Translations under genes and position numbers: made by a program | Source: Bacillota bacterium | GTDB lineage: Bacteria; Bacillota; Limnochordia; DTU080 | DNA length: 33,844 nucleotides | Assembly (NCBI GenBank): GCA_012838035.1 | Contig: DUQB01000064.1 | Location: 1-33,844, forward strand | Reading direction: 5' to 3' | The notes under the pieces: model-generated | What the model saw: only the letters and a program-made list of their open reading frames with translations | Database searches by the model: none | What the model was told of the DNA's origin: nothing | In this document: piece by piece, positions 4,357 to 25,201 of the stretch | How positions within the stretch are numbered: the stretch's first letter is position 1 | How the letters are laid out: every line of letters begins with the position of its first letter

Positions 4357-5562
4357 CTAATCGGGGTTATGCAACGCTCCGAGAAAAAGGATGCTGCCTG
4401 AGCGGGTATCGCGAATGAGAAACAAGAACGGACGATCTGCCCTAAATACGACCGGCGGCGGACCCAAAGAGGTGGTGCCTACTACGACACCGGTGGCGGC
4501 CGCGGCTTCCGTACCTTCTTCATTTACGTCGATATAGGCTTTGTGAATGACATCCGTAATACCGAGTCGTTCTTCAGCCATGCCGGAAAAATCCGCTATA
4601 TGAGGGTTGAAAGCAGTTGCTATTCCCATACGCTGCAGGGTATCCTTCAAGGAGAGCTGGGTTTCCAGCTTAAACCGCGGGAGCGCGACGTGTACGGTGG
4701 TATAGCGTAACTGGTCCATGCATGCGGCAAAATGCTCAGGTTTCATCTCCGATATGAACTGATCCCATGCAAGGTTCGGCTTGGGCAACAGGATGTTCAT
4801 GACCAAGTTTTCACCCTTATAGGGGAGCTGCAGTATTTGGGCGCGGCTTGTCTCGGTATACAAGAATCGCCCACTGCGCTGCATCATTGGCGTAGACACC
4901 TGTTGCCCGTCGCTAACATAAAAGGGAGCCGGTTGCGTTCTCTTATGATCAAAAGCAAGCTCCCAGTCGCCTTTGAAATAGATGGCATTGGTAAGGATAA
5001 GGCGGGTAAGCGGAGTGATCACCCCTGGTTTGATAAGATCTTTTATCTTACCATTGGTCTTTTGCTCCACCCATTGGTTGATGCTGAGGCGCGAGGTTTC
5101 AGGTTGAGATATAAAGTCTACTTCATGTAGCGCGGCAGCGTAATAACTGCCGGCTGTGGCCAGGAATGCGGGGGTGAGTGTTAAGCCCACTTGACCCCAA
5201 AGGGCATTGGCTACGGTAAGCTGATAATCTTGGGTAGGCGCATTTAATATGCTGTTCAAATGAGCGAGCGCGGCATGCAAATGCGGCTGCGCCATGTTAA
5301 AATGCAGCGTTTGGGCTAACTCTTCGGCCGTTTGTCCCGCCGCGCCCGCATAAGTTAGCGCCAATGCCGATGAGATACTATACGGTGAGAAAAACACATT
5401 GCCCGGGGTTCCGGCCACCTCATGCAACAAATCAAAAGCGAAAGCCGTATTGCTTTGCACAAGGCGTGTCGTGTCCGCGCCATTTACAGTTATTCCGGAA
5501 ACGCTGCAACAAACGAGAAGCAATACAGTGAAAAGGATATGGTATACTTTTGCGTTCTTCAT
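4357..5562 (-). CDS. Secreted serpin (serine/cysteine protease inhibitor)
   Basis: Serpins trap proteases by a conformational change after cleavage of the reactive centre loop. The protein shows family hallmarks: NVFFSPYSISSALALTYAGA near the N-terminus, LILTNAIYFKGDWELAF, the hinge NEEGTEAAAATGVVVG, and the C-terminal VFRADRPFLFLIRD with GSILFLGAL. The hinge is rich in small residues (GTEAAAAT), as required for an inhibitory serpin. Counting from P15 Gly puts P1-P1' near Thr-Ser (GTTSLGPPP), but the loop is about three residues longer than in antitrypsin, so the exact bond is uncertain. The start is ATG at 5562, nine bases after GGGAG; longer in-frame starts lack a site. A hydrophobic signal (YHILFTVLLLVCCSVSG) implies export; the Cys residues lack a standard lipobox. 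It probably protects secreted enzymes or the cell from external proteases. Confidence 0.93.
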   Translation of the reverse strand: MKNAKVYHILFTVLLLVCCSVSGITVNGADTTRLVQSNTAFAFDLLHEVAGTPGNVFFSPYSISSALALTYAGAAGQTAEELAQTLHFNMAQPHLHAALAHLNSILNAPTQDYQLTVANALWGQVGLTLTPAFLATAGSYYAAALHEVDFISQPETSRLSINQWVEQKTNGKIKDLIKPGVITPLTRLILTNAIYFKGDWELAFDHKRTQPAPFYVSDGQQVSTPMMQRSGRFLYTETSRAQILQLPYKGENLVMNILLPKPNLAWDQFISEMKPEHFAACMDQLRYTTVHVALPRFKLETQLSLKDTLQRMGIATAFNPHIADFSGMAEERLGITDVIHKAYIDVNEEGTEAAAATGVVVGTTSLGPPPVVFRADRPFLFLIRDTRSGSILFLGALHNPD

Positions 5563-5848
5563 GGCATCTGTCTCCCGCATCAGTCTTAGGAGCAACCGCG
5601 TCTGAGCGCAACGGCGAGGAGTTAAGTCTCGGCTCCCGATTCAGCCGGAGTCCCATTGCGTACGGTTAGTTGTTGCACTACAGCCTCATTTCTTATAGGG
5701 TACGGAAGCGGTGCAAGGTTACTCGAAAGAAGCGTCTGCACGATATGACGGCAGATCCACTTGAAGCAGATCGGCCGGTGCGCATGAAGAAGGTGCGGCA
5801 GCCGCCTATCGCCTAATCTGAACCAATGTCGACACGCCGTCATGCCTT

Positions 5849-15120: not shown

Positions 15121-15735
15121 CTATTTAAGTTCTGTTATCGTGATATCGTCCACCATAACTTCTGCGGGGACAAGCGCCAGTTGGCCGGAACGGTGAATGA
15201 TTACGAGTACGGTAGCCGTCGCGGCGCCTTCAGGGGCAATGTCGGCAACCGCCAACTCTTGCCAGACTCCTACATTTTTGGCTGTAGCCCTAGTGTGGTG
15301 CATGCGGTCACCGGATGTTTCCGATGGGGTATCGGCCGGCCAGAACTCAAGCCACACTTGCATACGGCTGGGCTCTGCCAACTCTTCGACAAAAACGTTG
15401 GCGGTGATAGCGTAGATGCTACCGGGAGTTACCGGTACGTGATGACTTCTGAGTCCGACGTAGCCGTCATCCCTGCCGCTCAATTTAAGTACGTGCTGTC
15501 CCGGCTTTTGCGGATGCTCGATGACCATTACGTGGTCGCCTTTACCTACCCATGCGGTGCCGGCGAAAGGCTTCCAACCATAGATGTACTCATTTTCCCA
15601 GCCTTGGTAGCGTTCCCGAGGCGGCAATTGCGATTCAAAGTCGCCGTTATCGAGCGCCACTGCGGCTGAGACTGCGATGCTGCCCAACATGAGAACGACA
15701 AGACTAATGATAAGTACCTGAGCAAAACGTTTCAT
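15121..15735 (-). CDS. Secreted CBM-like beta-sandwich protein (paralog 1)
   Basis: A 204-residue exported protein with a Sec signal (MKRFAQVLIISLVVLMLGSIAVSAA) followed by a single jelly-roll module starting ALDNGDFE and ending VMVDDITITEL. This is the layout of CBM4/9/22-like carbohydrate-binding domains, with aromatic-rich loops (YQGWENEYIYGWKPF, WLEFWPAD). It is clearly paralogous to the upstream gene at 15846-16463, sharing PPRE-YQGW, EYIYGWKPF, LRSHH-PVT, ELAEPSR, EFWPAD and APEGAATAT, and shows the same module as the N-terminus of the lyase at 1-2604. ATG at 15735 has GGGAG seven bases upstream. It probably binds cell-surface or environmental glycan; no catalytic residues are evident. 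Confidence 0.78.
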   Translation of the reverse strand: MKRFAQVLIISLVVLMLGSIAVSAAVALDNGDFESQLPPRERYQGWENEYIYGWKPFAGTAWVGKGDHVMVIEHPQKPGQHVLKLSGRDDGYVGLRSHHVPVTPGSIYAITANVFVEELAEPSRMQVWLEFWPADTPSETSGDRMHHTRATAKNVGVWQELAVADIAPEGAATATVLVIIHRSGQLALVPAEVMVDDITITELK

Positions 15736-15845: not shown

Positions 15846-16463
15846 TTACGGATACTGCACTTCTACAAAGCTGATGTTTTCCACTAATACCTCAGCCGGA
15901 AGAGGATCCAGTTTGGCTTGTGAATGGATGAGCACCATGATGGTTGCGGTCGCGGCACCTTCGGGCGCTGTTTCTGCAACCTCGAGGTCGAGCCAAACGC
16001 CCTTCTCCCTGGCCACAGCCTTGGTCAAGCTCATTCTAAAGGCTGATGTTTCACTTTCGAGATCAGCCGGCCAGAACTCGATAAACAATTGGAAGCGGCT
16101 TGGTTCGGCGAGCTCTTTGACTAACGCTCTGGCGTTAAGCATATACATACTGCCTTCAGTTACCGGGATGTGATGGCTTCTCAGAGCTACGTAACCACTC
16201 TCGATGCCCGTCATCCTAAGTAGACTGGTATCCGGCTTTTCCGGGTGCGGTATCACCGTAATATGTCCACCGGCGATCCAAGCCGTGGTGAAGGGTTTCC
16301 AACCATAAATGTACTCGTCCGCCCACCCTTGATATCCTTCCCGCGGCGGCAACGTGGACATAAAGTCCCCATTGTCAAGCAAATTTTGAGCTGCGGAGAC
16401 GGCTGCGGCACTGAATAAAAGAATGATAAGGCTCACTAACAGTGTTGGCTTGTTTTTCCTCAT
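15846..16463 (-). CDS. Secreted CBM-like beta-sandwich protein (paralog 2)
   Basis: The upstream member of a tandem pair with 15121-15735. The chosen start is ATG at 16463, seven bases after GAGGAG; the frame extends another 30 bases to 16493 without a better site. Residues 1-25 are a signal peptide (KNKPTLLVSLIILLFSAAAVSAA). The mature domain opens NLLDNGDF, has LRSHHIPVTEGSMYMLNARALV, FIEFWPADLESETS and APEGAATATIMVLIH, and ends LVENISFVEV. These match the paralog position by position and also the lyase N-terminal module. The 110-base spacer to the next gene carries no obvious terminator, so co-transcription is likely. Confidence 0.78.
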   Translation of the reverse strand: MRKNKPTLLVSLIILLFSAAAVSAAQNLLDNGDFMSTLPPREGYQGWADEYIYGWKPFTTAWIAGGHITVIPHPEKPDTSLLRMTGIESGYVALRSHHIPVTEGSMYMLNARALVKELAEPSRFQLFIEFWPADLESETSAFRMSLTKAVAREKGVWLDLEVAETAPEGAATATIMVLIHSQAKLDPLPAEVLVENISFVEVQYP

Positions 16464-16742
16464 GATAACGCTCCTCTTATGTAGTATGAGCATGACTGCT
16501 CCTTATACATGCTGCGTGCTCTATTCACCTCGCTATGGATAGTCGGTACACAGAATAGGTTTTGGCATTGTACATGCTAAATCCTCTATGGAATACTTCT
16601 TTTTTAGCCCTTTATGAACGCTGTTGTGAGCCCGGACTTGCTACAAGCGACTGCTCGCAGAGTCGCATAGCTGCAGTGCTATCGACTCTGGCGGCGAACG
16701 GCGCAGAAGTAACGGTCATAGCGCTTCATACCGCAAATGAGC
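16464..16742. other. Intergenic region without a supported gene
   Basis: Upstream region of the paralogous sandwich genes. A TATAAG-like sequence occurs near 16500 on the minus strand without a matching -35. Repeated short words (CGACT...AGAGTCG, GCAGTGCTATCGACTC) give weak pairing possibilities around 16648-16692. A 70-codon plus-strand frame at 16562-16774 starts at TTG without a ribosome binding site and looks non-coding. Confidence 0.5.
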
Positions 16743-16766
16743 AACCCTCCGGTTTCACGGAGGGTT
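16743..16766 (-). terminator. Hairpin at the 3' end of the thiamine-related operon
   Basis: AACCCTCCG and CGGAGGGTT form a 9-bp perfect stem with a six-base loop, 43 bases after the stop of the APH-like kinase on the minus strand. The following minus-strand bases are only modestly T-rich (GCTCATTT), so efficiency is uncertain. Confidence 0.5.
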
Positions 16767-16808
16767 CCACATGATAAAACGTATGCGCATCCAATCTGCC
16801 GACCTGTA

Positions 16809-17948
16809 TTATGTCAGGTACTGCCGTAACCACTTTCGCAGCTTGTCGCCCCAAGAGGCGGCATAACGGCGAGTATGCTCCAGAAGGTACGCTTCATAGG
16901 CCCACACGGCCCGAGATCGGTCACCTTCCACCCCTTCATAGTAGGCAATATTGGTCAAGGCCAAGTCCAACTGATGTATGGCGAGCAGATCGGGGAGGAT
17001 CTCTCTTTCCATTTTGGTGAGGGAGCCGGCCTCAAGGTAACCGTCGAGCAGGGCGGCGAGGATGTCGTAACGCACGCCGTTTGAGCCGCCCGCCAGAATG
17101 TCCAGCCAAAGCACGGCATTGCGATCGATAGCAACGGCTAAATCGTAGATTCGACACCCATAGTCGGAAAGATGGAAGTCGATGACGGCGGAGACCTCAT
17201 TATCCGCAAAGAACAAGTTATTGGCATGCCAATCGCCATGCGTGCAACAGCGGGGGAGACACGCCAACTGCTGGTGCACACGGCTGTAAAACGGCGCATA
17301 TACCTGCTCAATTTCTGCGCGCCACGATCGCTCTTGCAAAAAGCGCTGCAACGCAGGCAGCTGGGCGGCCAGCTTCTCGACGGCCTCGATCAGATCAGCG
17401 TTAAAGGCGAGCGCAAACTGCGCCAGCATAGGCGCTACAGGGCGAGCGGTCCGGATGGGGCAGTCGCCTACCGCAGCATGAAATCGGGCCAAGGTTGCTC
17501 CGGCGCTGCGAGCATGCGCTACAGAGGCAAAGGGTTGCCACGAATGGCTTTCTCTGTACGTGTCTTCGCCTTCAGCACGGTAGTGCGCCTCATATAACCA
17601 TTCATCGGTACAGACCACGGTTTCACCATCTGCCGTTCGGAGCACAGCCGGCGTGGGAAAACCTTTACGCACCAAATGGTCTATGAGTTTATGCTCCCGT
17701 TGCAAATCAGCAACGGTACGCCAGCGTGTCGAACGTTTTTTTACGAACAGATCTTGCTGATTGGTGCGTACCAGCGATGCTGCGCTATAAGGCCGTTCGC
17801 TGACCGCCAAGATTTCTTGCAAAGAGCCGGCCTCCGGATATAAACGCAGCAGCGCTGTGATTTCATCGACCGTCATAGGTGCCAAATGCGGCTTCACTAC
17901 AGCCAAACTCTGTGACTTAGATAACTTTTCCCGCTTCTTATCTGCCAC
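16809..17948 (-). CDS. APH-fold kinase (thiamine/choline kinase-like)
   Basis: A 379-residue small-molecule kinase of the aminoglycoside phosphotransferase superfamily. The catalytic loop HGDWHANN (237-244: Asp239 base, Asn244 metal ligand) and the metal-binding VIDFHLSDYG (Asp257) are intact; a candidate ATP lysine is Lys70 in LFVKKR. The family includes thiamine kinase (ThiK), choline kinase, MTR kinase, homoserine kinase II and CotS-like proteins. It is the last gene of the TPP-riboswitch operon, ten bases after the NMT1-like gene, with GTG start and GGGGA six bases upstream. Operon context makes phosphorylation of imported thiamine or a precursor such as hydroxyethylthiazole or hydroxymethylpyrimidine the leading idea; this is inference. 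The first 25 residues are a charged extension. Confidence 0.82.
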   Translation of the reverse strand: MADKKREKLSKSQSLAVVKPHLAPMTVDEITALLRLYPEAGSLQEILAVSERPYSAASLVRTNQQDLFVKKRSTRWRTVADLQREHKLIDHLVRKGFPTPAVLRTADGETVVCTDEWLYEAHYRAEGEDTYRESHSWQPFASVAHARSAGATLARFHAAVGDCPIRTARPVAPMLAQFALAFNADLIEAVEKLAAQLPALQRFLQERSWRAEIEQVYAPFYSRVHQQLACLPRCCTHGDWHANNLFFADNEVSAVIDFHLSDYGCRIYDLAVAIDRNAVLWLDILAGGSNGVRYDILAALLDGYLEAGSLTKMEREILPDLLAIHQLDLALTNIAYYEGVEGDRSRAVWAYEAYLLEHTRRYAASWGDKLRKWLRQYLT

Positions 17949-17958
17949 AGGTTATCCC

Positions 17959-18864
17959 CTATTCCGGTAGATATTCATCGGTGAAATATTTGTCATGACC
18001 TTTCTCTGCTTCCAGGAAGCCATGCGCCGCCAACCAATGCGCATAGGCGGCAATCAAAGGCATGTTGTGACGTCCCCAAGCATCAAGATGCCAAGTTTCA
18101 GCAATTGCCGTGATAGAGGCGGTAAACTGCGATTTGGAATAATAGGGTGCCACTAGAACCATGGACTCCGCGGCCTGCGTAGGTTGCTCGGCGGCAGCGG
18201 CGAACCCTTTGTAAGTCGCACGCAGGAAACCGCGTACCAACTGCGGATCCTGATGGGCAAAACTCTTCTTCACCGCAATAATCTGTGTATGACAGTACGG
18301 CGCATTGAGTTCGGAGACTTCCTTCCAAGCGATGTTTTCATCCTGAAGACAAGCTAAAACGCCTTCCCAACCCCAGAACGTGCCGTAAATGCAATCGACG
18401 ACGCCTTTGTGAATATCTAAAGGATCGGGTTCGTTGGGGTAGTACTCCTTAAATGACACACGCGCCGGGTCCTTGCCCGCCTTGGCCATCATATACTTCA
18501 ACACGGCTCTAACCCTAGGTGACCGAGGCACGCCTACGACTTTATCTTCCAGTTCGGCGAAACTGGTAATAGGGTGCCGTTTGTCGTAGATGAGCGCTTC
18601 AAAAGAGCGGTTGTTGCAAGCGGCAATGGAGAGTAGGTTATCGCCGGCTTCGTTCCTCAGCATCAGTCGATTCGGGTAATTGTAGGCGAAATCGGCTTCA
18701 TCGGCTAACAAACGTCCGAGCGAATCACCGCGGTAAGGGTCGTAGGACACGATGTCCAGATCAATGCCTTCCGCCTTATAGAAGCCTAAGTCGCGGCCGT
18801 AATAGAAACCACAGTTATTAGCCCATGGATGATAGAAATCGAGTACCAGCTTTATATAACGCAT
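17959..18864 (-). CDS. NMT1/THI5-family (ThiY-like) protein lacking a signal peptide
   Basis: The 301-residue protein has the type II periplasmic-binding fold of the NMT1/THI5/ThiY family: KLVLDFYHPWANNCGFYYGRDLGFYKAEGIDLDIV at the N-terminus, LLADEADFAYNYPN, VVGVPRSPRVRAVLKYMM, and GVVDCIYGTFWGWEGV. Bacterial ThiY binds formylaminopyrimidine for the ThiXYZ importer; yeast THI5 is an enzyme that makes HMP-P. Here the ATG at 18864 is immediately preceded in frame by TAA, with GGAG eight bases upstream, so no signal peptide exists and the protein should be cytosolic. The CCCFC motif of yeast THI5 is absent, and by eye its active-site His region (MIHT) aligns with NYPN. It lies 23 bases after the ABC ATPase gene. 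It may bind or convert a pyrimidine precursor inside the cell. Confidence 0.8.
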   Translation of the reverse strand: MRYIKLVLDFYHPWANNCGFYYGRDLGFYKAEGIDLDIVSYDPYRGDSLGRLLADEADFAYNYPNRLMLRNEAGDNLLSIAACNNRSFEALIYDKRHPITSFAELEDKVVGVPRSPRVRAVLKYMMAKAGKDPARVSFKEYYPNEPDPLDIHKGVVDCIYGTFWGWEGVLACLQDENIAWKEVSELNAPYCHTQIIAVKKSFAHQDPQLVRGFLRATYKGFAAAAEQPTQAAESMVLVAPYYSKSQFTASITAIAETWHLDAWGRHNMPLIAAYAHWLAAHGFLEAEKGHDKYFTDEYLPE

Positions 18865-18887
18865 TTACATCACTCCGTTCGTGTTGA

Positions 18888-19679
18888 CTAGCGCAAGTTG
18901 CGATGGGCCAGGATCTTTGGTTTAGCAGGATCATGCGTCGGCACTGTTGCTAAAAGGCGCTTTGTATAGTCATGTTTAGGGTGGTTGAGCACGGCATCCT
19001 TGCTACCGGCTTCTATGATGCGACCTTCGTGCAACACACATACGGCATCAGCCACTTGCGCAATGAGATCAAGATCATGCGAGATGTAGATTTGCGCCAT
19101 GCCTCTACTACGTCGTACTGACCGCAACAGGGCGAGTAGATCTTGTCGTAGCACCATATCGAGGGCGGATGTAGGTTCATCCAGAATCAATACGGCTGGT
19201 GAAACTAAAAGCGCTCGAGCTACCGCCACGCGTTGGCGTTGACCGCCACTGAGCTCTCGGGGGCGGCGTTTGAGTACATCCGCAGGTAGTGCCAACTCCT
19301 TCAACAAGGCGTCTACCTGCCTTCGACGCTCATCCGCCGCTGTCCAACGCAACCTAGCCGCATCAAGCAACGGTATCCCTATCGCTAAGTGCCTAGGTAA
19401 CGACAAGTCCGGATCCTGAAACACCATTTGCACGGCACGATAGTAAGCCTTTCGGTCGGCTGCGGTGCGCAGCGAAAGAGGAGCCCCATGGAGCGAGATG
19501 CGACCGGCGTCGGGTTGCAGCAACCCACATAAGCAACGCGCAAGCGTCGATTTCCCCGAGCCGGATTCACCGACAATCCCTAGTGTATCCCCGACATGGA
19601 CAGTAAGTGACACCGCATCCAGCACCGGTTTGGTCGTCCCCGGATATGTGTAACTAAGCTGCTCCGCGATAAAGCTCAC
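18888..19679 (-). CDS. ABC importer ATPase, NikE/DppF/OppF-like
   Basis: A 263-residue ATP-binding subunit: Walker A GESGSGKST (37-45 region), Q-loop FQDPDLSLPRH, signature LSGGQRQRVAVARAL, Walker B VLILDEPTSALD and switch His in YISHDLDLIAQ. The C-terminus stops soon after the core, as in NikE, and lacks the longer oligopeptide-type extension with Cys residues. The GTG start overlaps the stop of the preceding ATPase by four bases (GTGA), so translation is coupled. It pairs with the other ATPase as a heterodimer energising the importer. Nickel or peptide specificity is set by the binding protein, and here the riboswitch points to a thiamine-related substrate. Confidence 0.92.
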   Translation of the reverse strand: MSFIAEQLSYTYPGTTKPVLDAVSLTVHVGDTLGIVGESGSGKSTLARCLCGLLQPDAGRISLHGAPLSLRTAADRKAYYRAVQMVFQDPDLSLPRHLAIGIPLLDAARLRWTAADERRRQVDALLKELALPADVLKRRPRELSGGQRQRVAVARALLVSPAVLILDEPTSALDMVLRQDLLALLRSVRRSRGMAQIYISHDLDLIAQVADAVCVLHEGRIIEAGSKDAVLNHPKHDYTKRLLATVPTHDPAKPKILAHRNLR

Positions 19680-20440
19680 AGACCGGTTCCACCTATCAGT
19701 TGCTTGGTATAAGGGTGTTGGGGTTTATGCCATACATCAAGCACCGCGCCCCATTCAACAGCTTGACCTTCCTTTAACACTAACACCCAATCGGCTAGTT
19801 CTGCAACTAGGGCTAAATTATGCGTAACAAACAAAGTGCTGAGGCCGCGCTCTCGTGTAATTTTATCGATGGCCTTGACCGCTTCAGCCTGGGCGACCAT
19901 ATCCAGTTGCGATGTGGGCTCGTCCGCTATCAGCAACTCAGCGTTCATGGCCAACGCTCGGGCTAAAGCGATGCGTTGCGCCTGACCGCCGCTGATTTGA
20001 TGCGCGTAACGATCATAGAGTTGTTCCGCAGGCGTCAAACCTAGTTCGTTGAAGAGCGATAGAGTCAGTGTTCGTGCTGCTGTAGGCGATAAGCCTTGCG
20101 CTGTAGCCAACACATCGTTCACCTGTTCGCCCACCTTAACCGTCGGATGCAGTGAAGCGTGAGCTTCCTGCTGGATAAAGCCCAAACGTTCCGGTAGCCG
20201 ACGCTGCGCATACGTCGCTACGGCAAAAGTCGGCAAGGCGCCTAAGAAAGCTTGCGCCAGCGTGGTTTTACCGCTGCCGCTTTCTCCGATTACAGCTGTA
20301 ACCTGCCCTCTGTTCAGACCGAGGGAGACTGAGCAGAGAATCAGTTCGGATGCAGCTGAGGTATGAGTCCGGCGTCTATACGTCACGGTCAAATCCGTAA
20401 CATAATAATCGAATTGGTTAGGATTCCACCACTTAGTCAT
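19676..20440 (-). CDS. ABC importer ATPase, NikD/DppD/OppD-like
   Basis: A 254-residue ATP-binding subunit: Walker A IGESGSGKTT (51-60), signature ISGGQAQRIALARAL, Walker B LLIADEPTSQLD and switch His in FVTHNLALVAE. Its length is that of NikD and it lacks the C-terminal oligopeptide-type extension. It starts at ATG 20440, overlapping the end of the second permease gene by eight bases, and overlaps the next ATPase gene by four. Such tight coupling suggests stoichiometric synthesis of the two ATPases. The first 14 residues (MTKWWNPNQFDYYV) are an unusual aromatic lead-in before the first beta-strand. Confidence 0.92.
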   Translation of the reverse strand: MTKWWNPNQFDYYVTDLTVTYRRRTHTSAASELILCSVSLGLNRGQVTAVIGESGSGKTTLAQAFLGALPTFAVATYAQRRLPERLGFIQQEAHASLHPTVKVGEQVNDVLATAQGLSPTAARTLTLSLFNELGLTPAEQLYDRYAHQISGGQAQRIALARALAMNAELLIADEPTSQLDMVAQAEAVKAIDKITRERGLSTLFVTHNLALVAELADWVLVLKEGQAVEWGAVLDVWHKPQHPYTKQLIGGTGL

Positions 20441-21251
20441 GGCGCATCAACCAATCTCCCATTCTATAAAGGAGAAGAATCGTCAAGGCCAGGAACGCCC
20501 CAGGAAACAGGGTGGTCCACCAGACGTTTAAGAATAACAAATCGCTTATTCCCGCGGCGATCATCGCGCCCCATTCAGCCGTAGGGGGAGAAACCCCGAG
20601 ACCGATAAAACCGAAACCTGCAGCTACAGATATGGCAAAACCTGCTTGTACCGGGAAGTAAGCCAAAGCGCTCGAAAATCCCTGCGGCAGCAAATATACA
20701 AGTAGGATGCGCCATTCCGGCACACCGGATAAACGAGCTGAATCCACCACGGCGGCGTTGCGCTGAACAGCCAGTTCGGCACGGGTCATTCGGCCGTATA
20801 CAGGTATATTGATCAGAGCGATGACACCTACCAACGGAGCGATGCCTTTACCCGCGACACTGAGCACCAACAGTCCTAAAAGCAAGCCGGGGATGGATTG
20901 CCAAACATCGAACAGGCGCATAACGATGGTATCCGGAAGGCTGCCTATGTAACCAGCTACGGCGCCTAACAGTGTGCCTACAAGAAAGGCGAGGATGCCT
21001 GAACCTACCGCGATGCCCATATCCAACTTGACGGCGGCGATAACCCGGGCGAACACATCTCGGCCGCTGCTGTCGGTGCCGAAGGGATGAGCCAAGGACG
21101 GCGGTGTGTATACCTCACTGGTATCGGTGCGATTAGGATCGCGTCCTAACAACGGATTAAGGACGAATGAGGCGCACAAGAGGATGAAGAGCAGCCACAT
21201 ATAAATGGGAACAGATGCAATAAAACGGGAGACCGATTTTATAAGCGCCAT
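20433..21251 (-). CDS. ABC importer permease, NikC/DppC-like
   Basis: An inner-membrane subunit of 272 residues with the N-terminal DppC/NikC signature HPFGTDSSGRDVFARVI following a first membrane helix, then five more helices. The coupling-helix EAA-type region is RAELAVQRNAAVVDSARLSGVPEWRILLVYLLP, which contacts the ATPases. Start ATG 21251 is four bases after the stop of the first permease gene, with GGAGG nine bases upstream. Both permeases belong to the family of peptide/nickel importers; nothing in the sequence alone separates peptide from other substrates. Confidence 0.92.
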   Translation of the reverse strand: MALIKSVSRFIASVPIYMWLLFILLCASFVLNPLLGRDPNRTDTSEVYTPPSLAHPFGTDSSGRDVFARVIAAVKLDMGIAVGSGILAFLVGTLLGAVAGYIGSLPDTIVMRLFDVWQSIPGLLLGLLVLSVAGKGIAPLVGVIALINIPVYGRMTRAELAVQRNAAVVDSARLSGVPEWRILLVYLLPQGFSSALAYFPVQAGFAISVAAGFGFIGLGVSPPTAEWGAMIAAGISDLLFLNVWWTTLFPGAFLALTILLLYRMGDWLMRHD

Positions 21252-21255
21252 CGCA

Positions 21256-22275
21256 CTAAACCTCCCTCAGGCGAGGGTCGATGAAGTACATGGCCACATC
21301 AACGATAAAGAACGCCAGGCTGTAACAAAGCGCAGAGACCAATACAACACCCTGTACCACCGCATGATCACCGGCATTGATCCCATTTAGAACATAGGCG
21401 CCGAGGCCGTTCCAACCAAAGATGTGCTCGACCAAAACCGTACCGCCGATCATATAACCGAAAGAAGCAGCCAGCAGGTTTAGGGCGGGAGCTACGGCCG
21501 GCGGGATTAGATAGCGCCACAAAACCATTCTAAACGGCAGCTTGGCCAATTTGACGGCCTTATAAGCATCCGAGCTGAGAACCGTTGCCACATTGCTGTG
21601 AAACACCTGCACAAGCTGGGGGAATACGGTGAAGGCCAGCGTAATGCTCGGCAACAGCAGATGATGCAGGGCGGAGAACAGCACATCCCAACGGCCCCGA
21701 AGCAGCGCATCCCACACGAGGAAGCCCGTGCCGTTCTCGATAGAGGCCGGTCCGATGCCCATGCGACCTAATGGCGCCGGGGCGATCGGCAGCTTTATGT
21801 AGAATGCATAGAGCAGCAAAATGCCTAATAGGAAAGTAGGTACGGCAGTACCGCCGGTTACCAGGGCTTTGTTTACCTTTGGCCAAAGACTGTCCGGCTT
21901 AAGCGCCGCTTGTAAGCCGCAGACGAAGGCGGCGCTGACGGCCAAAACCAAGGCTGCCGTAACCAACTCCAAAGAGGCTGGAACACGTGCCGCCAGATCG
22001 GTGAGCACAGGGCGGCCGGAAATGAGCGACCGCCCCAAATCTCCCTGCAGCAGACTGACCAAATACGCCCCGTATTGCACCGGCAACGGCTTGTCGAGGC
22101 CGAGTGCGGCACGGGTCGCCTCCACAATTTCCGACGTAGCATTAGGACCACTGAGTACCACCGCGGGGTCTGCGGGTAAGACTCTCCCTACCAGGAACAC
22201 GATGGTGACGGTTCCCCACAGCACCAGCAACAGCTGAAATAACCTGCTTATCAATCGCCGTAGTAGCGGATGCAT
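21256..22275 (-). CDS. ABC importer permease, NikB/DppB-like
   Basis: A 339-residue permease with the DppB layout: first helix (LISRLFQLLLVLWGTVTIVFLVG), a conserved segment with DPAVVLSGPNAT...ALGLDKPLPVQYGAYL, and five later helices. The cytoplasmic coupling region is SSDAYKAVKLAKLPFRMVLWRYLIPPAVAP, followed by the GGTVLVEHIFGWNGLGAYVLNGI strand-helix typical of the family. ATG at 22275 is eight bases after AGGGTGG; the upstream in-frame GTG at 22287 has no site. It starts 15 bases after the binding-protein stop. Confidence 0.91.
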   Translation of the reverse strand: MHPLLRRLISRLFQLLLVLWGTVTIVFLVGRVLPADPAVVLSGPNATSEIVEATRAALGLDKPLPVQYGAYLVSLLQGDLGRSLISGRPVLTDLAARVPASLELVTAALVLAVSAAFVCGLQAALKPDSLWPKVNKALVTGGTAVPTFLLGILLLYAFYIKLPIAPAPLGRMGIGPASIENGTGFLVWDALLRGRWDVLFSALHHLLLPSITLAFTVFPQLVQVFHSNVATVLSSDAYKAVKLAKLPFRMVLWRYLIPPAVAPALNLLAASFGYMIGGTVLVEHIFGWNGLGAYVLNGINAGDHAVVQGVVLVSALCYSLAFFIVDVAMYFIDPRLREV

Positions 22276-22290
22276 GCAACTGCCCACCCT

Positions 22291-23901
22291 TTACTTCTTT
22301 GTGGGGTATAAACCCTGATAACGAATGCCCGTGTCTTTGTACAACACATAACCGGCCACGGTATCCCGGGTGAGAAGCACATGGTTGGTCAACGCCAGGT
22401 AAATGGCATTAAGTTGCTCATTGTAAATACGTTGCGCTTCTGCATAAGCCGCATTGCGCTCCGCGCTGATTGGTTGGAACTGCCACTGCTTTTGCAGCTC
22501 GTCAACTCTGGTGTTGGAGAACTTGGTAAAGTTGCCTTGGGCGTTAGTGACCATCCATAGTCCGACGATGGTAGATGCGTCGTCGATCCAGGAGATGCCT
22601 TCATGGATAAAGAACGGCAGTTCTTTACTAAAAACCCGGGTAGTAAAGTCGGCCGCCGGCACCTTCACAATCTCCAGCTTCAAGCCGATTCTGTTCAGGT
22701 AGTCTTGTATCAGCACCGCTATCTCCTCATGCTCATACGAAGAGCCGTTGATGTACAAAGTGAGCGGTTTTTGCGGATCGAAGCCGGACTTACTCAGCAG
22801 CTCCTTCGCTTTGGCCAGATCCTGCTCATAGTCGAATCCCACACCGCTATAACCAGGGATTTCCGGGAGAACGAAACTGTCGTAACGCCGTGCGGCGCCG
22901 TGATAGACGTTCTCGATGACGGCATTATAAGGAACGGCATAAGCAATGGCTTGTCGCAGCGTCAGGTTGTCATAAGGGGCGAGGGTTACGTTAAAGGCTA
23001 AATAGACGCGATTACCCGACGGTACGCTCCATACTTTAACGCCGGAATTAGTCGGTATGTTTTCCACCAGGCGCGTCGGAATGTCAGTGGCTACATCGAC
23101 ATCCCCCTTGGTAATCAGCGCCAGGCGAGTCGACGTGTCCTTGATGGTTTTGATAACGATCTTCTGGTAAGCCGGCTTTTCGCCCCAATAGTAGGGATTG
23201 GCTGTAAGCACCAACTCGCTGCCGGGTATGCGGGAACTGATGTAATACGGACCGGTACCGGCCGTGTTCTCTGCCAGCCACTGGGTTGCCCACGGATCAT
23301 CAGGGGTAGCGTGCTGCTTTACGGTCTCGCTATCTAGAATGGAGAACATTTGGAACCGTATGAAGGGTAGCGATCTGGGATTAATCTCGTCCGTGGTAAT
23401 CTGCACCGTATAGTCGTCGATCACTTTGATGGCATCAATCGACGTGATGCCGGCTTCCTTGTTCTCGAACTGGCCCCAACCGATGGGCGGGTCGGAGAGC
23501 TGTCTCTGCCAGCTATAGTACCAATCGGCTGCGGTCATTTCGTTGCCGCTGGGGTAGAAGCGCACCCCTTTCCGCAGGTAAAACGTGTAGGTACGGCCAT
23601 CCGGGCTAGTCTCCACCTTTTCCGCCAGCAGCGGTTCCCACCCATTGATGTCGTCGACAGTCTGGACCATGTGTCCGTCTTTCTCTTGTATGGTGAAAGT
23701 CACGGGTTGCTCATAGACCGCAGACACAATTTCCGTGGTGCGCGGCGAGCCGCCGAATAAGGGGTCGAGGTTGCCGTGTTCTTCACTAATGGCAACCACT
23801 AGTGTATGCTCATCCTTAACGATCATGGAACGACCGATCACAATTAGCGTCACTACGGCGATAATCCCAAATATGGGCCAAATGCGTTGCGCCATCTTCA
23901 T
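22291..23901 (-). CDS. Solute-binding protein of family 5 (membrane-anchored), thiamine-regulated
   Basis: The extracytoplasmic binding subunit, 536 residues, of SBP_bac_5 type: LVVAISEEHGNLDPLFGG at the mature N-terminus, GWEPLLAEKVETSPDGRTYTFYLRKGVRFYPSG, NTAGTGPYYISS, IKTIKDTSTRLALITKGDVDVATDI, VYLAFNVTLAPYDNLTLRQAIAYAV and PLTLYINGSS. The N-terminus (residues 8-27) is a hydrophobic anchor but there is no lipobox Cys, unusual for Gram-positive binding proteins, so it may stay anchored by an uncleaved helix. The family carries peptides, nickel-chelates, sugars and haem; here the TPP riboswitch argues for thiamine or a thiamine precursor. ATG 23901 follows GAGG by ten bases; 91 bases separate it from the ThiD-like gene. 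Confidence 0.88.
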   Translation of the reverse strand: MKMAQRIWPIFGIIAVVTLIVIGRSMIVKDEHTLVVAISEEHGNLDPLFGGSPRTTEIVSAVYEQPVTFTIQEKDGHMVQTVDDINGWEPLLAEKVETSPDGRTYTFYLRKGVRFYPSGNEMTAADWYYSWQRQLSDPPIGWGQFENKEAGITSIDAIKVIDDYTVQITTDEINPRSLPFIRFQMFSILDSETVKQHATPDDPWATQWLAENTAGTGPYYISSRIPGSELVLTANPYYWGEKPAYQKIVIKTIKDTSTRLALITKGDVDVATDIPTRLVENIPTNSGVKVWSVPSGNRVYLAFNVTLAPYDNLTLRQAIAYAVPYNAVIENVYHGAARRYDSFVLPEIPGYSGVGFDYEQDLAKAKELLSKSGFDPQKPLTLYINGSSYEHEEIAVLIQDYLNRIGLKLEIVKVPAADFTTRVFSKELPFFIHEGISWIDDASTIVGLWMVTNAQGNFTKFSNTRVDELQKQWQFQPISAERNAAYAEAQRIYNEQLNAIYLALTNHVLLTRDTVAGYVLYKDTGIRYQGLYPTKK

Positions 23902-23992
23902 CGTGAAGCGACCTCTTTCTTAATGAAATGCCTTTACTGACGTCTCGGCGTATTTGGAGAGACTTCATGCCGTTACCATACTGATAATCGAC

Positions 23993-24790
23993 TCACTTCC
24001 ACTTGCGCCATAGGTGATAAAACACCTGGACGGGGCCGTGACCTTTGCCGACAGGCTTGCCATGGGGCAACACGCTGGTCATAAAAGCTCTGGCGTTTTT
24101 AACGGCTTCCGGGATGGCTGCGCCTTGTGCTAAATAAGCGGCGATAGCCGACGAGAAAACGCAGCCGCTGCCGTTATCGTGCGTCGTATTGATGCGTTTG
24201 GACGTATACTCATGCAAATTTTGGCCGTCGTAGAGAATATCCACCGGCTCATCGTCGAGATGACCGCCTTTGAGCAACACGAACCGCGGTCCAAACGCAT
24301 GCAGTTTTTTGGTAGCGTCCGACATTTGAGCGACGGTGGTGATCGGTTGCTTCAGCATCACTTCAGCATCCGGAATACTGAGCGCTAGGATATCTACCAG
24401 CGGCAGCATGTGTTGTTTCAACGTGGTAATAGCCGCATCGTTCAGTACCCAGGGACAGTTGCGATAGCAGCAAACAACGGGGTCGAGCACCAACAGGCCG
24501 GTTTTTTGGGTCTGGAAGAGCTCGGCCAAAATGCGGTAGTTGTCCGCTGCGCCGATCATACCCATTTTGATTGCCGTAGGTTGGATGTCCTTGAGCACCT
24601 GCCGTGTCTGCTCCAGGACTAAATCGGTGGGTATGTCTAAAGCGGCAGACATGCCTACGGAGTTTTGCGCGGTGACTGCCGTAATGACCGAGGCGGCATA
24701 CACCCCAAGCGCGGAGAATGTCTTAATATCTGCCTGAATACCACATGCGCCGCCAGAGTCGGATGCTGCAATTGTGAGCGCTTTATGCAT
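23993..24790 (-). CDS. thiD: ThiD-like hydroxymethylpyrimidine (phosphate) kinase, divergent
   Basis: ThiD phosphorylates HMP and HMP-P on the way to thiamine. The 265-residue protein has the ribokinase-like ThiD layout: ALTIAASDSGGACGIQADIKTFSALGVYAASVITAVTAQN (4-43), VLDPVV (101-106), LLKGGHLDDEPVDILYDG, and the phosphoryl-transfer loop DNGSGCVFSSAIAAYLAQG with Cys210, then GKGHGPVQ. Several positions differ from typical ThiD: AASDSGGACG for AGSDSGGGAG, DPVVCCYRNC for DPVMV-KSG, and LALSIPDAEVML for ITPN-PEAE-L. It is the first gene behind the TPP riboswitch, with GGGGG six bases before ATG 24790. A shifted substrate (another pyrimidine, pyridoxine or a toxic analogue) is possible. Confidence 0.85.
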   Translation of the reverse strand: MHKALTIAASDSGGACGIQADIKTFSALGVYAASVITAVTAQNSVGMSAALDIPTDLVLEQTRQVLKDIQPTAIKMGMIGAADNYRILAELFQTQKTGLLVLDPVVCCYRNCPWVLNDAAITTLKQHMLPLVDILALSIPDAEVMLKQPITTVAQMSDATKKLHAFGPRFVLLKGGHLDDEPVDILYDGQNLHEYTSKRINTTHDNGSGCVFSSAIAAYLAQGAAIPEAVKNARAFMTSVLPHGKPVGKGHGPVQVFYHLWRKWK

Positions 24791-24796
24791 AAAAAT

Positions 24797-24824
24797 CCCC
24801 CTATTCCGTTACAGCGGATGGGGG
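24797..24824 (-). promoter_or_regulatory. Expression-platform hairpin covering the thiD ribosome binding site
   Basis: In the transcript, CCCCC-A-UCCG pairs with CGGA-AUA-GGGGG around a six-base loop, directly followed by AUUUUU and the AUG of the ThiD-like gene. The GGGGG strand is that gene's ribosome binding site. The structure can therefore act both as an intrinsic terminator (with the U-run) and as a site sequestrator. Confidence 0.75.
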
Positions 24825-24828
24825 TCAA
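24822..24828 (-). promoter_or_regulatory. Anti-sequestor strand complementary to riboswitch P1
   Basis: The transcript bases UUGACCC here are fully complementary to GGGUCAA at 24953-24959, the 5' side of the riboswitch P1 region, and overlap the CCCCC that would sequester the ribosome binding site. Pairing with the aptamer 5' strand would free the site when TPP is absent. Confidence 0.6.
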
Positions 24829-24883
24829 GAGATACCTGAACTGCAGTAGGGGATAACATAAGGGAACAACTGTTAAGCTATTT

Positions 24884-24958
24884 GGTCCGTCCCTACGCTG
24901 GTATTATCCAGATCAGGTAATAAGGGTATGATCTCAGCCTAAAAGGCACCCCTTGACC
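24884..24958 (-). ncRNA. TPP (thiamine pyrophosphate) riboswitch aptamer
   Basis: Read on the minus strand the conserved THI-element bases are all present in order: GGGGTGCC, GGCTGAGATCATACCC, then ACCTGATCTGGATAATACCAGCGTAGGGA. The P1 stem is closed by GACC with GGTC. The CUGAGA pyrimidine-sensing turn and the ACCUGAUCUGGAUAAU pyrophosphate-sensing helix match the aptamers of known thiamine genes. It lies between a good promoter and the ThiD-like gene, so it controls the whole downstream operon. Confidence 0.97.
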
Positions 24959-24976
24959 CATGTTGCCGTCGCATTA

Positions 24977-25005
24977 AGTATACAGCTCTGTTGCAAAAAT
25001 GTCCA
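24977..25005 (-). promoter_or_regulatory. Sigma-A-type promoter of the TPP-riboswitch operon
   Basis: On the minus strand: -35 TGGACA (25005-25000), a 17-base spacer, and -10 TATACT (24982-24977), each matching consensus at five of six bases. Transcription would begin near 24970, just before the aptamer. Confidence 0.8.
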
Positions 25006-25091: not shown

Positions 25092-25168
25092 GCGTCCGTA
25101 GCTCAGCTGGATAGAGTGTCTGACTTCGAATCAGAAGGCCACAGGTTCGAGTCCTGTCGGGCGCACCA
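25092..25168 (+). tRNA. tRNA-Arg(TCG)
   Basis: A full cloverleaf of 77 bases: acceptor GCGTCCG pairs with CGGGCGC (one G-U), D-arm GCTCAGCTGGATAGAGT, anticodon arm TCTGA-CTTCGAA-TCAGA with anticodon TCG (reads CGA), and T-arm CAGGTTCGAGTCCTG. The terminal CCA is encoded. The gene stands alone between divergently arranged units. Confidence 0.96.
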
Positions 25169-25169
25169 G

Positions 25170-25201
25170 CCGGAAACCCTACCGTTTGGTAGGGTTTCCG
25201 G
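25170..25201 (+). terminator. Intrinsic terminator of tRNA-Arg
   Basis: CCGGAAACCCTACC and GGTAGGGTTTCCGG form a 14-bp perfect stem with a GTTT loop, two bases after the CCA end. A short T-rich tail (GTTTGTTG) follows. Confidence 0.88.

Follow-up and report, generated by a model that had tools for sequence, protein, structure and literature searches.

The described systems closest to the locus reported here are ThiXYZ, in which a thiamine pyrophosphate (TPP) aptamer stands upstream of genes for the binding protein ThiY and the SsuBC-like ThiXZ, and ThiBPQ, a TPP-controlled ATP-binding cassette (ABC) importer with a fused permease, whose binding protein belongs to a family (SBP_bac_6/8) unrelated to the one found here. 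The TPP-regulated importers named in the first-pass annotation of our locus (ThiT, ThiBPQ, ThiXYZ, YkoEDC, CytX and PnuT) come from families other than the peptide/nickel class; a published list of transporters of thiamine (vitamin B1), drawn from 2,228 genomes, holds no system of that class, and the same work states the assignment of transporters as a gap in bacterial vitamin models (PMC6593275). Our searches of openly licensed papers likewise did not turn up any description of a peptide-class importer governed by a TPP switch. Such an arrangement is present in the window, by which we mean the whole 33,844-bp contig C242 of a Bacillota genome. Between position 16743 (the hairpin after the last gene) and position 25005 (the -35 box), a TPP riboswitch is followed by eight genes on the minus strand, encoding a ThiD kinase, a five-component Dpp/Nik-type importer, a protein of the NMT1/THI5 fold and an APH-fold kinase. 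With moderate confidence, and on the evidence of one genome, we read this unit as a TPP-repressed salvage operon of a B1 auxotroph, the importer of which carries thiamine or a precursor of it.

The aptamer (RF00059, 24872 to 24963; all features of the operon are on the minus strand) scored 75.1 bits (cut-off, 54.3 bits) and covered the full length of the model (positions 1-105). Upstream of it lies the best promoter-like sequence of the region, TGGACA-N17-TATACT (24977 to 25005), which is a consensus match only (10 of 12 positions), promoter-like sites as a class being no more frequent in the region than expected by chance (4 found, 7.2 expected). The aptamer and good promoter that had been described ahead of eight tightly spaced genes were therefore recovered, and the families named for these genes were confirmed with Pfam and NCBIfam.

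Energy modelling of this one leader sequence predicted two mutually exclusive folds. In the lowest-energy fold, the 5' half of the aptamer pairs with the downstream AGGUAUCUCUUGACCC, so that the anti-Shine-Dalgarno strand ACCCCC is partly consumed and much of the thiD Shine-Dalgarno sequence is left free; the predicted antisequestor is the segment AGGTATCTCTTGACCC (24822 to 24837), which pairs with the aptamer 5' half in this ligand-free minimum free energy fold. When the aptamer pairs were enforced in the model, the hairpin ACCCCCAUCC...GGGGGAUUUUU formed and covered the thiD Shine-Dalgarno sequence, and the expected number of Shine-Dalgarno/anti-Shine-Dalgarno pairs rose from 1.4 to 4.6. The hairpin ACCCCCATCC...GGGGGATTTTT (24791 to 24825; -15.1 kcal/mol), predicted to hide the Shine-Dalgarno sequence, is also terminator-like, and could terminate transcription as well because five U come next. 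The energy of the unconstrained leader fold was not unusual against shuffled sequences (z = -1.05). The modelled aptamer-bound fold, which hides the Shine-Dalgarno sequence of thiD, is the usual OFF logic of TPP riboswitches.

The first gene, thiD (23993 to 24790, 265 aa), encodes a kinase of hydroxymethylpyrimidine (HMP) and HMP phosphate (HMP-P), which scored 259.3 bits against the equivalog cut-off of 204.95 bits of TIGR00097; it is the second ThiD paralog of the genome and is 39% identical to the other. From thiD onward, the intergenic gaps are 91, 3, 4, -8, -4, 23 and 10 nt. Because the 91-nt gap between thiD and the next gene has no minus-strand promoter-like or terminator-like match, no later gap exceeds 23 nt and a hairpin follows the APH gene, the eight genes are likely co-transcribed. 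This GC-rich hairpin, AACCCTCCG-TGAAAC-CGGAGGGTT (16743 to 16766; -18.1 kcal/mol in isolation), has a weak U tract and probably terminates the operon.

The five genes that follow thiD encode the importer: a family 5 (DppA/OppA-type, SBP_bac_5) solute-binding protein (SBP) of 536 aa with an N-terminal hydrophobic segment and no lipobox cysteine (22291 to 23901); a DppB/NikB-type permease (21256 to 22287, the start of which may be an ATG four codons downstream) and a DppC/NikC-type permease (20433 to 21251), both BPD_transp_1 proteins and nearest to Opp2B (222 bits) and Opp2C (178 bits), respectively, under the cut-offs of these models; and the ABC ATPases A (19676 to 20440) and B (18888 to 19679), with intact Walker A, Walker B and signature motifs. 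With a family 5 SBP, a pair of BPD_transp_1 permeases with the DppB-type N-terminal domain and two ATPases, the transporter clearly belongs by sequence to the peptide/nickel class, and differs in this from the SsuBC-like ThiXZ. No curated cut-off of a named system was passed, so that it is neither NikABCDE nor DppABCDF according to those models. The set of an SBP_bac_5 protein, two permeases of DppB/C architecture and two ATPases is shared with DppABCDF and OppABCDF, from which the operon differs by its short ATPases as well as by its TPP control. The ATPases (254 and 263 aa) are, as had been proposed, of NikD/NikE size and nearest to the NikD and NikE models, with scores under the cut-offs.

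Among solved structures, those most closely related to the SBP are DppA, HbpA and a third, unnamed SBP. We aligned the SBP with E. coli DppA, OppA and NikA and examined the positions of DppA Asp408, which holds the peptide N-terminus, and Arg355, and of NikA Arg97, Arg137, Trp398 and His416, all of which we take to be ligand contacts. In the alignment, where local shifts are possible, Trp occupies the Asp408 position and Asn the Arg355 position, and none of the four NikA residues is present. An Asp is kept at the 408 position in DppA, OppA and the other DppA-type protein of the host (L162). Because the peptide-anchoring Asp and Arg and the NikA ligand residues are absent, peptide or nickel is a less likely cargo, within the uncertainty of the loop alignment.

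The B1 genes of the host are consistent with a need for import. A whole-genome search detected three RF00059 aptamers over the cut-off, in two operons. In the other operon, tandem aptamers precede thiN-thiD-thiM-thiE, all four above the NCBIfam cut-offs, and a transposase gene follows. The two tandem aptamers (L060:10160-10426, on contig C20) are about 70 nt apart; such tandem TPP aptamers have been reported as rare (PMC2258182). ThiC was not found in the host or its five nearest relatives by a search that was positive in 13 of 14 control genomes. ThiG was also not found in the host, where the only match was a fragment of 51 residues inside a frame resembling PdxS by eye. A set of ThiD, ThiE, ThiM and ThiN that lacks ThiC and ThiG corresponds to the 'Ahz' pattern of auxotrophy described in the literature, which requires B1 or HMP plus hydroxyethylthiazole (PMC6593275, Table 1). 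Because its gene set matches this pattern, the host is predicted to be a B1 auxotroph dependent either on thiamine or on HMP together with thiazole.

Of the standard transporters that were looked for, ThiT was not found in the host genome, and neither was a close ThiB, the best match (28% identity) lying in an apparent spermidine-type cluster, judged by eye, on a contig that carries no TPP element. Since the aptamers occur in two operons and the other one is thiN-thiD-thiM-thiE, the importer in the window is the only TPP-controlled transporter of this predicted auxotroph (PnuT, YkoEDC, CytX, ThiV, ThiW, ThiU and TenA were not searched for). A cargo of thiamine or a precursor thus fits, because the biosynthesis genes and the tested standard transporters are absent and the peptide anchor of the SBP is lost.

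According to our reading as a salvage operon, scarcity of TPP would allow the 5' half of the aptamer to pair with the antisequestor, the thiD Shine-Dalgarno sequence would be free and all eight genes would be made. The cargo then taken up by the DppA-fold SBP and the DppBC/NikDE-type importer would be thiamine itself or, with greater probability, a vitamer that contains the pyrimidine, for example HMP or a product of thiamine degradation; ThiD would phosphorylate the pyrimidine, and ThiM, ThiE and ThiN from the other TPP operon would complete TPP. If this is true, a Dpp/Nik-type importer of B1 vitamers would extend the known list by one transporter class, and would also serve as a warning that some importers annotated as 'peptide/nickel' carry vitamins.

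The last two genes encode putative intracellular partners of the importer. The NMT1/THI5-fold protein (17959 to 18864, 301 aa, PF09084) was correctly described as cytosolic: an in-frame TAA directly before its ATG leaves no room for an upstream extension to a signal peptide. The relatives that the phylum sample yielded, from 83 other genomes, have frames no shorter than 321 aa, with the exception of one fragment, and stand behind TPP aptamers in all seven loci examined. The structural model of the protein (predicted local distance difference test score 86.8) had its best Protein Data Bank match in 4nmy (template modelling score 0.85), which is thiamin-bound (PMC10586155), followed by 3ix1, bound to a formylaminopyrimidine (FAMP), and then by Thi5; sulfonate and taurine binders ranked lower. 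The fold thus resembles that of ThiY, from which the protein differs in having no signal peptide and lacking most of the conserved ligand-site residues. The match to the CmpC domain (9uak) was weaker than that to 4nmy. In NrtC and CmpC, a cytosolic NMT1-type domain is tied to an ABC ATPase, and in the window the NMT1 gene comes directly after that of ATPase B. The likeness has its limits, as the window protein is separate, belongs to the thiamine rather than the nitrate/bicarbonate branch and is paired with a Dpp/Nik-type importer. Within the cell, this protein is probably a binder of the imported vitamer and would act either as a carrier or as a stand-alone counterpart of the uptake-limiting sensor domain of NrtC/CmpC. 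A free cytosolic ThiY-fold protein beside an ABC importer would be a simple system for testing the regulation of uptake by intracellular binding proteins.

The APH-fold small-molecule kinase (16809 to 17948, 379 aa, PF01636 at 3e-25) has intact kinase motifs (HGDWHANN and IDF), and its closest named models, those of homoserine kinase, are far under their cut-offs. No BLASTP match to E. coli ThiK was obtained at E values up to 10, and ThiK membership was rejected on this ground. The two intracellular kinases proposed by the first-pass annotation both hold as kinases by sequence. A B1 moiety is our economical guess at its substrate, and the kinase would probably phosphorylate such a moiety. As a tentative extension, the operon may be a self-contained module under one TPP switch, in which the Dpp/Nik importer carries the vitamer, the cytosolic ThiY-fold protein senses or receives it in the manner of the fused NrtC/CmpC domain, and the APH protein is a new B1-moiety kinase; we consider it rather doubtful that all of these parts hold together.

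Several observations weigh against the salvage reading. The closest relatives of the SBP (30-34% identity) also lack the Asp, and they sit in operons without TPP elements. Most residues of the LDWxPNTNHTG and QHNTSGF motifs, near-invariant in the TPP-linked ThiY set, are changed in the NMT1 protein (positions 11, 14, 15, 17 and 85-91), and because of this its ligand may differ from that of ThiY. The APH protein has no homolog at 1e-12 in 399 genomes of the phylum. The genome is about 94% complete, so that the absent genes could be unsequenced, and B1 transporters of the types not searched for could exist without TPP control. Finally, there is no second genome with the arrangement, and nothing shows that selection keeps the importer and the riboswitch together.

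The comparative searches behind this last point covered 60 other TPP loci of the class, several of them cut by contig ends, and in none did a riboswitch unit run into a peptide/nickel-class importer; the check proposed in the first-pass annotation, a search for this gene order behind other TPP aptamers, was accordingly negative. Two loci that appeared to be TPP-Opp operons (L081 and L083) were rejected, since an S66 peptidase gene on the opposite strand separates the thi genes from the importer. No ortholog of the NMT1 protein was found in 61 relatives and 399 phylum genomes, the SBP had none in 73 genomes of the class or 399 of the phylum, and the operon was not found in the plasmids searched, nothing being closer than about 34%. 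When about 85,000 species were scanned for exact peptides of the NMT1 protein and the SBP, only an unrelated archaeal match of 31% was returned. Because the gene order is absent from these TPP loci and no ortholog of the SBP, the NMT1 protein or the APH kinase was found, the operon is rare or recently assembled. The sister genus G001, which likewise lacks ThiC, has a single TPP element. This element drives a ThiBPQ-type operon (L115, on G001:C41), which suggests that one class of importer has taken the place of another. In another genome of the sample (G005), a TPP aptamer lies upstream of a PhnCDE-like transporter with a Phosphonate-bd SBP, an ABC ATPase and a permease (L110:1914-4951), a class outside the usual B1 list. 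TPP-binding PhnD-like proteins exist in mycoplasmas.

The proposal of a new salvage importer for thiamine or its precursors thus retains the contiguous unit, the gene content of the host and the lost peptide anchor in its favor, and lacks comparative support. A rival reading is a general peptide or metal importer that came to lie behind thiD, carries no B1 vitamer and is under incidental riboswitch control or none. The ordinary Dpp-type operons of the SBP relatives, the lack of conservation of the arrangement and the position of the importer behind the widest gap of the unit would all be expected in that case. However, this gap has neither a promoter-like nor a terminator-like site, the DppA anchors and NikA ligand residues are absent, the operon also encodes an NMT1 protein of the thiamine-binding branch and the host is otherwise without a TPP-controlled transporter, and we therefore regard a general importer as unlikely.

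It is more improbable that the importer is TPP-controlled and its ligand is not a B1 vitamer destined for TPP synthesis; a thiamine antimetabolite, some B1 conjugate or a nutrient of another kind would be examples of such a ligand. The pockets of the SBP and the NMT1 protein are indeed unlike those of any characterized B1 binder, and the APH kinase might have some other compound as its substrate, but the auxotrophic gene content together with thiD in the operon makes a B1 precursor the simplest cargo.

We also considered whether the contig is foreign to the auxotrophic genome through a binning or assembly artefact, in which case the argument from genome context fails. In favor of this, the host assembly (3.72 Mb, 94% complete) is split into 253 contigs and has 4.9% contamination, the window makes up an entire contig and the class yielded no ortholog. 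The tetranucleotide profile of the operon and both flanks, however, correlated with other contigs of the host at 0.73-0.90 and with contigs of other genomes at no more than 0.63. Since the composition fits the host, an origin from contamination is not supported and the contig probably belongs to this genome, although binning may itself use tetranucleotide-type signals; we judge an artefact very improbable. A tRNA-Arg (TCG) gene (25092 to 25168, plus strand) lies just upstream of the operon promoter in divergent orientation, with a strong hairpin next to it at 25170 to 25201. Insertions often occur at tRNA genes, so the operon could be a block that was acquired.

The slightest chance of all is given to the NMT1 protein being a synthase like yeast THI5 that makes HMP-P in place of ThiC and feeds ThiD, with the importer secondary. 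A cytosolic protein of this fold, with Thi5 structures among its best matches, does stand beside a TPP-switched thiD in a genome from which ThiC is missing. In the alignment, however, Asn62 and Arg66 replace Lys62 and His66, which we take to be the catalytic residues of THI5 and on which the rejection of this enzyme identity rests; the Cys-rich CCCFC segment is absent, and 4nmy and 3ix1, both binding proteins, are nearer to the window protein than Thi5 is. Because it has no signal peptide, the ThiY residues are changed and Lys62 and His66 are replaced, the protein is, as judged from its alignments and model, a cytosolic and divergent representative of the thiamine-pyrimidine-binding fold, and neither a canonical ThiY nor a THI5 enzyme.

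Elsewhere in the window, two mutually similar, secreted-looking proteins of about 210 aa are encoded in tandem on the minus strand (15121 to 15735 and 15846 to 16493), both without any Pfam match. A further minus-strand gene (4357 to 5595) encodes a bacterial serpin at full length (PF00079, 3e-122), the N-terminus of which is signal-like.

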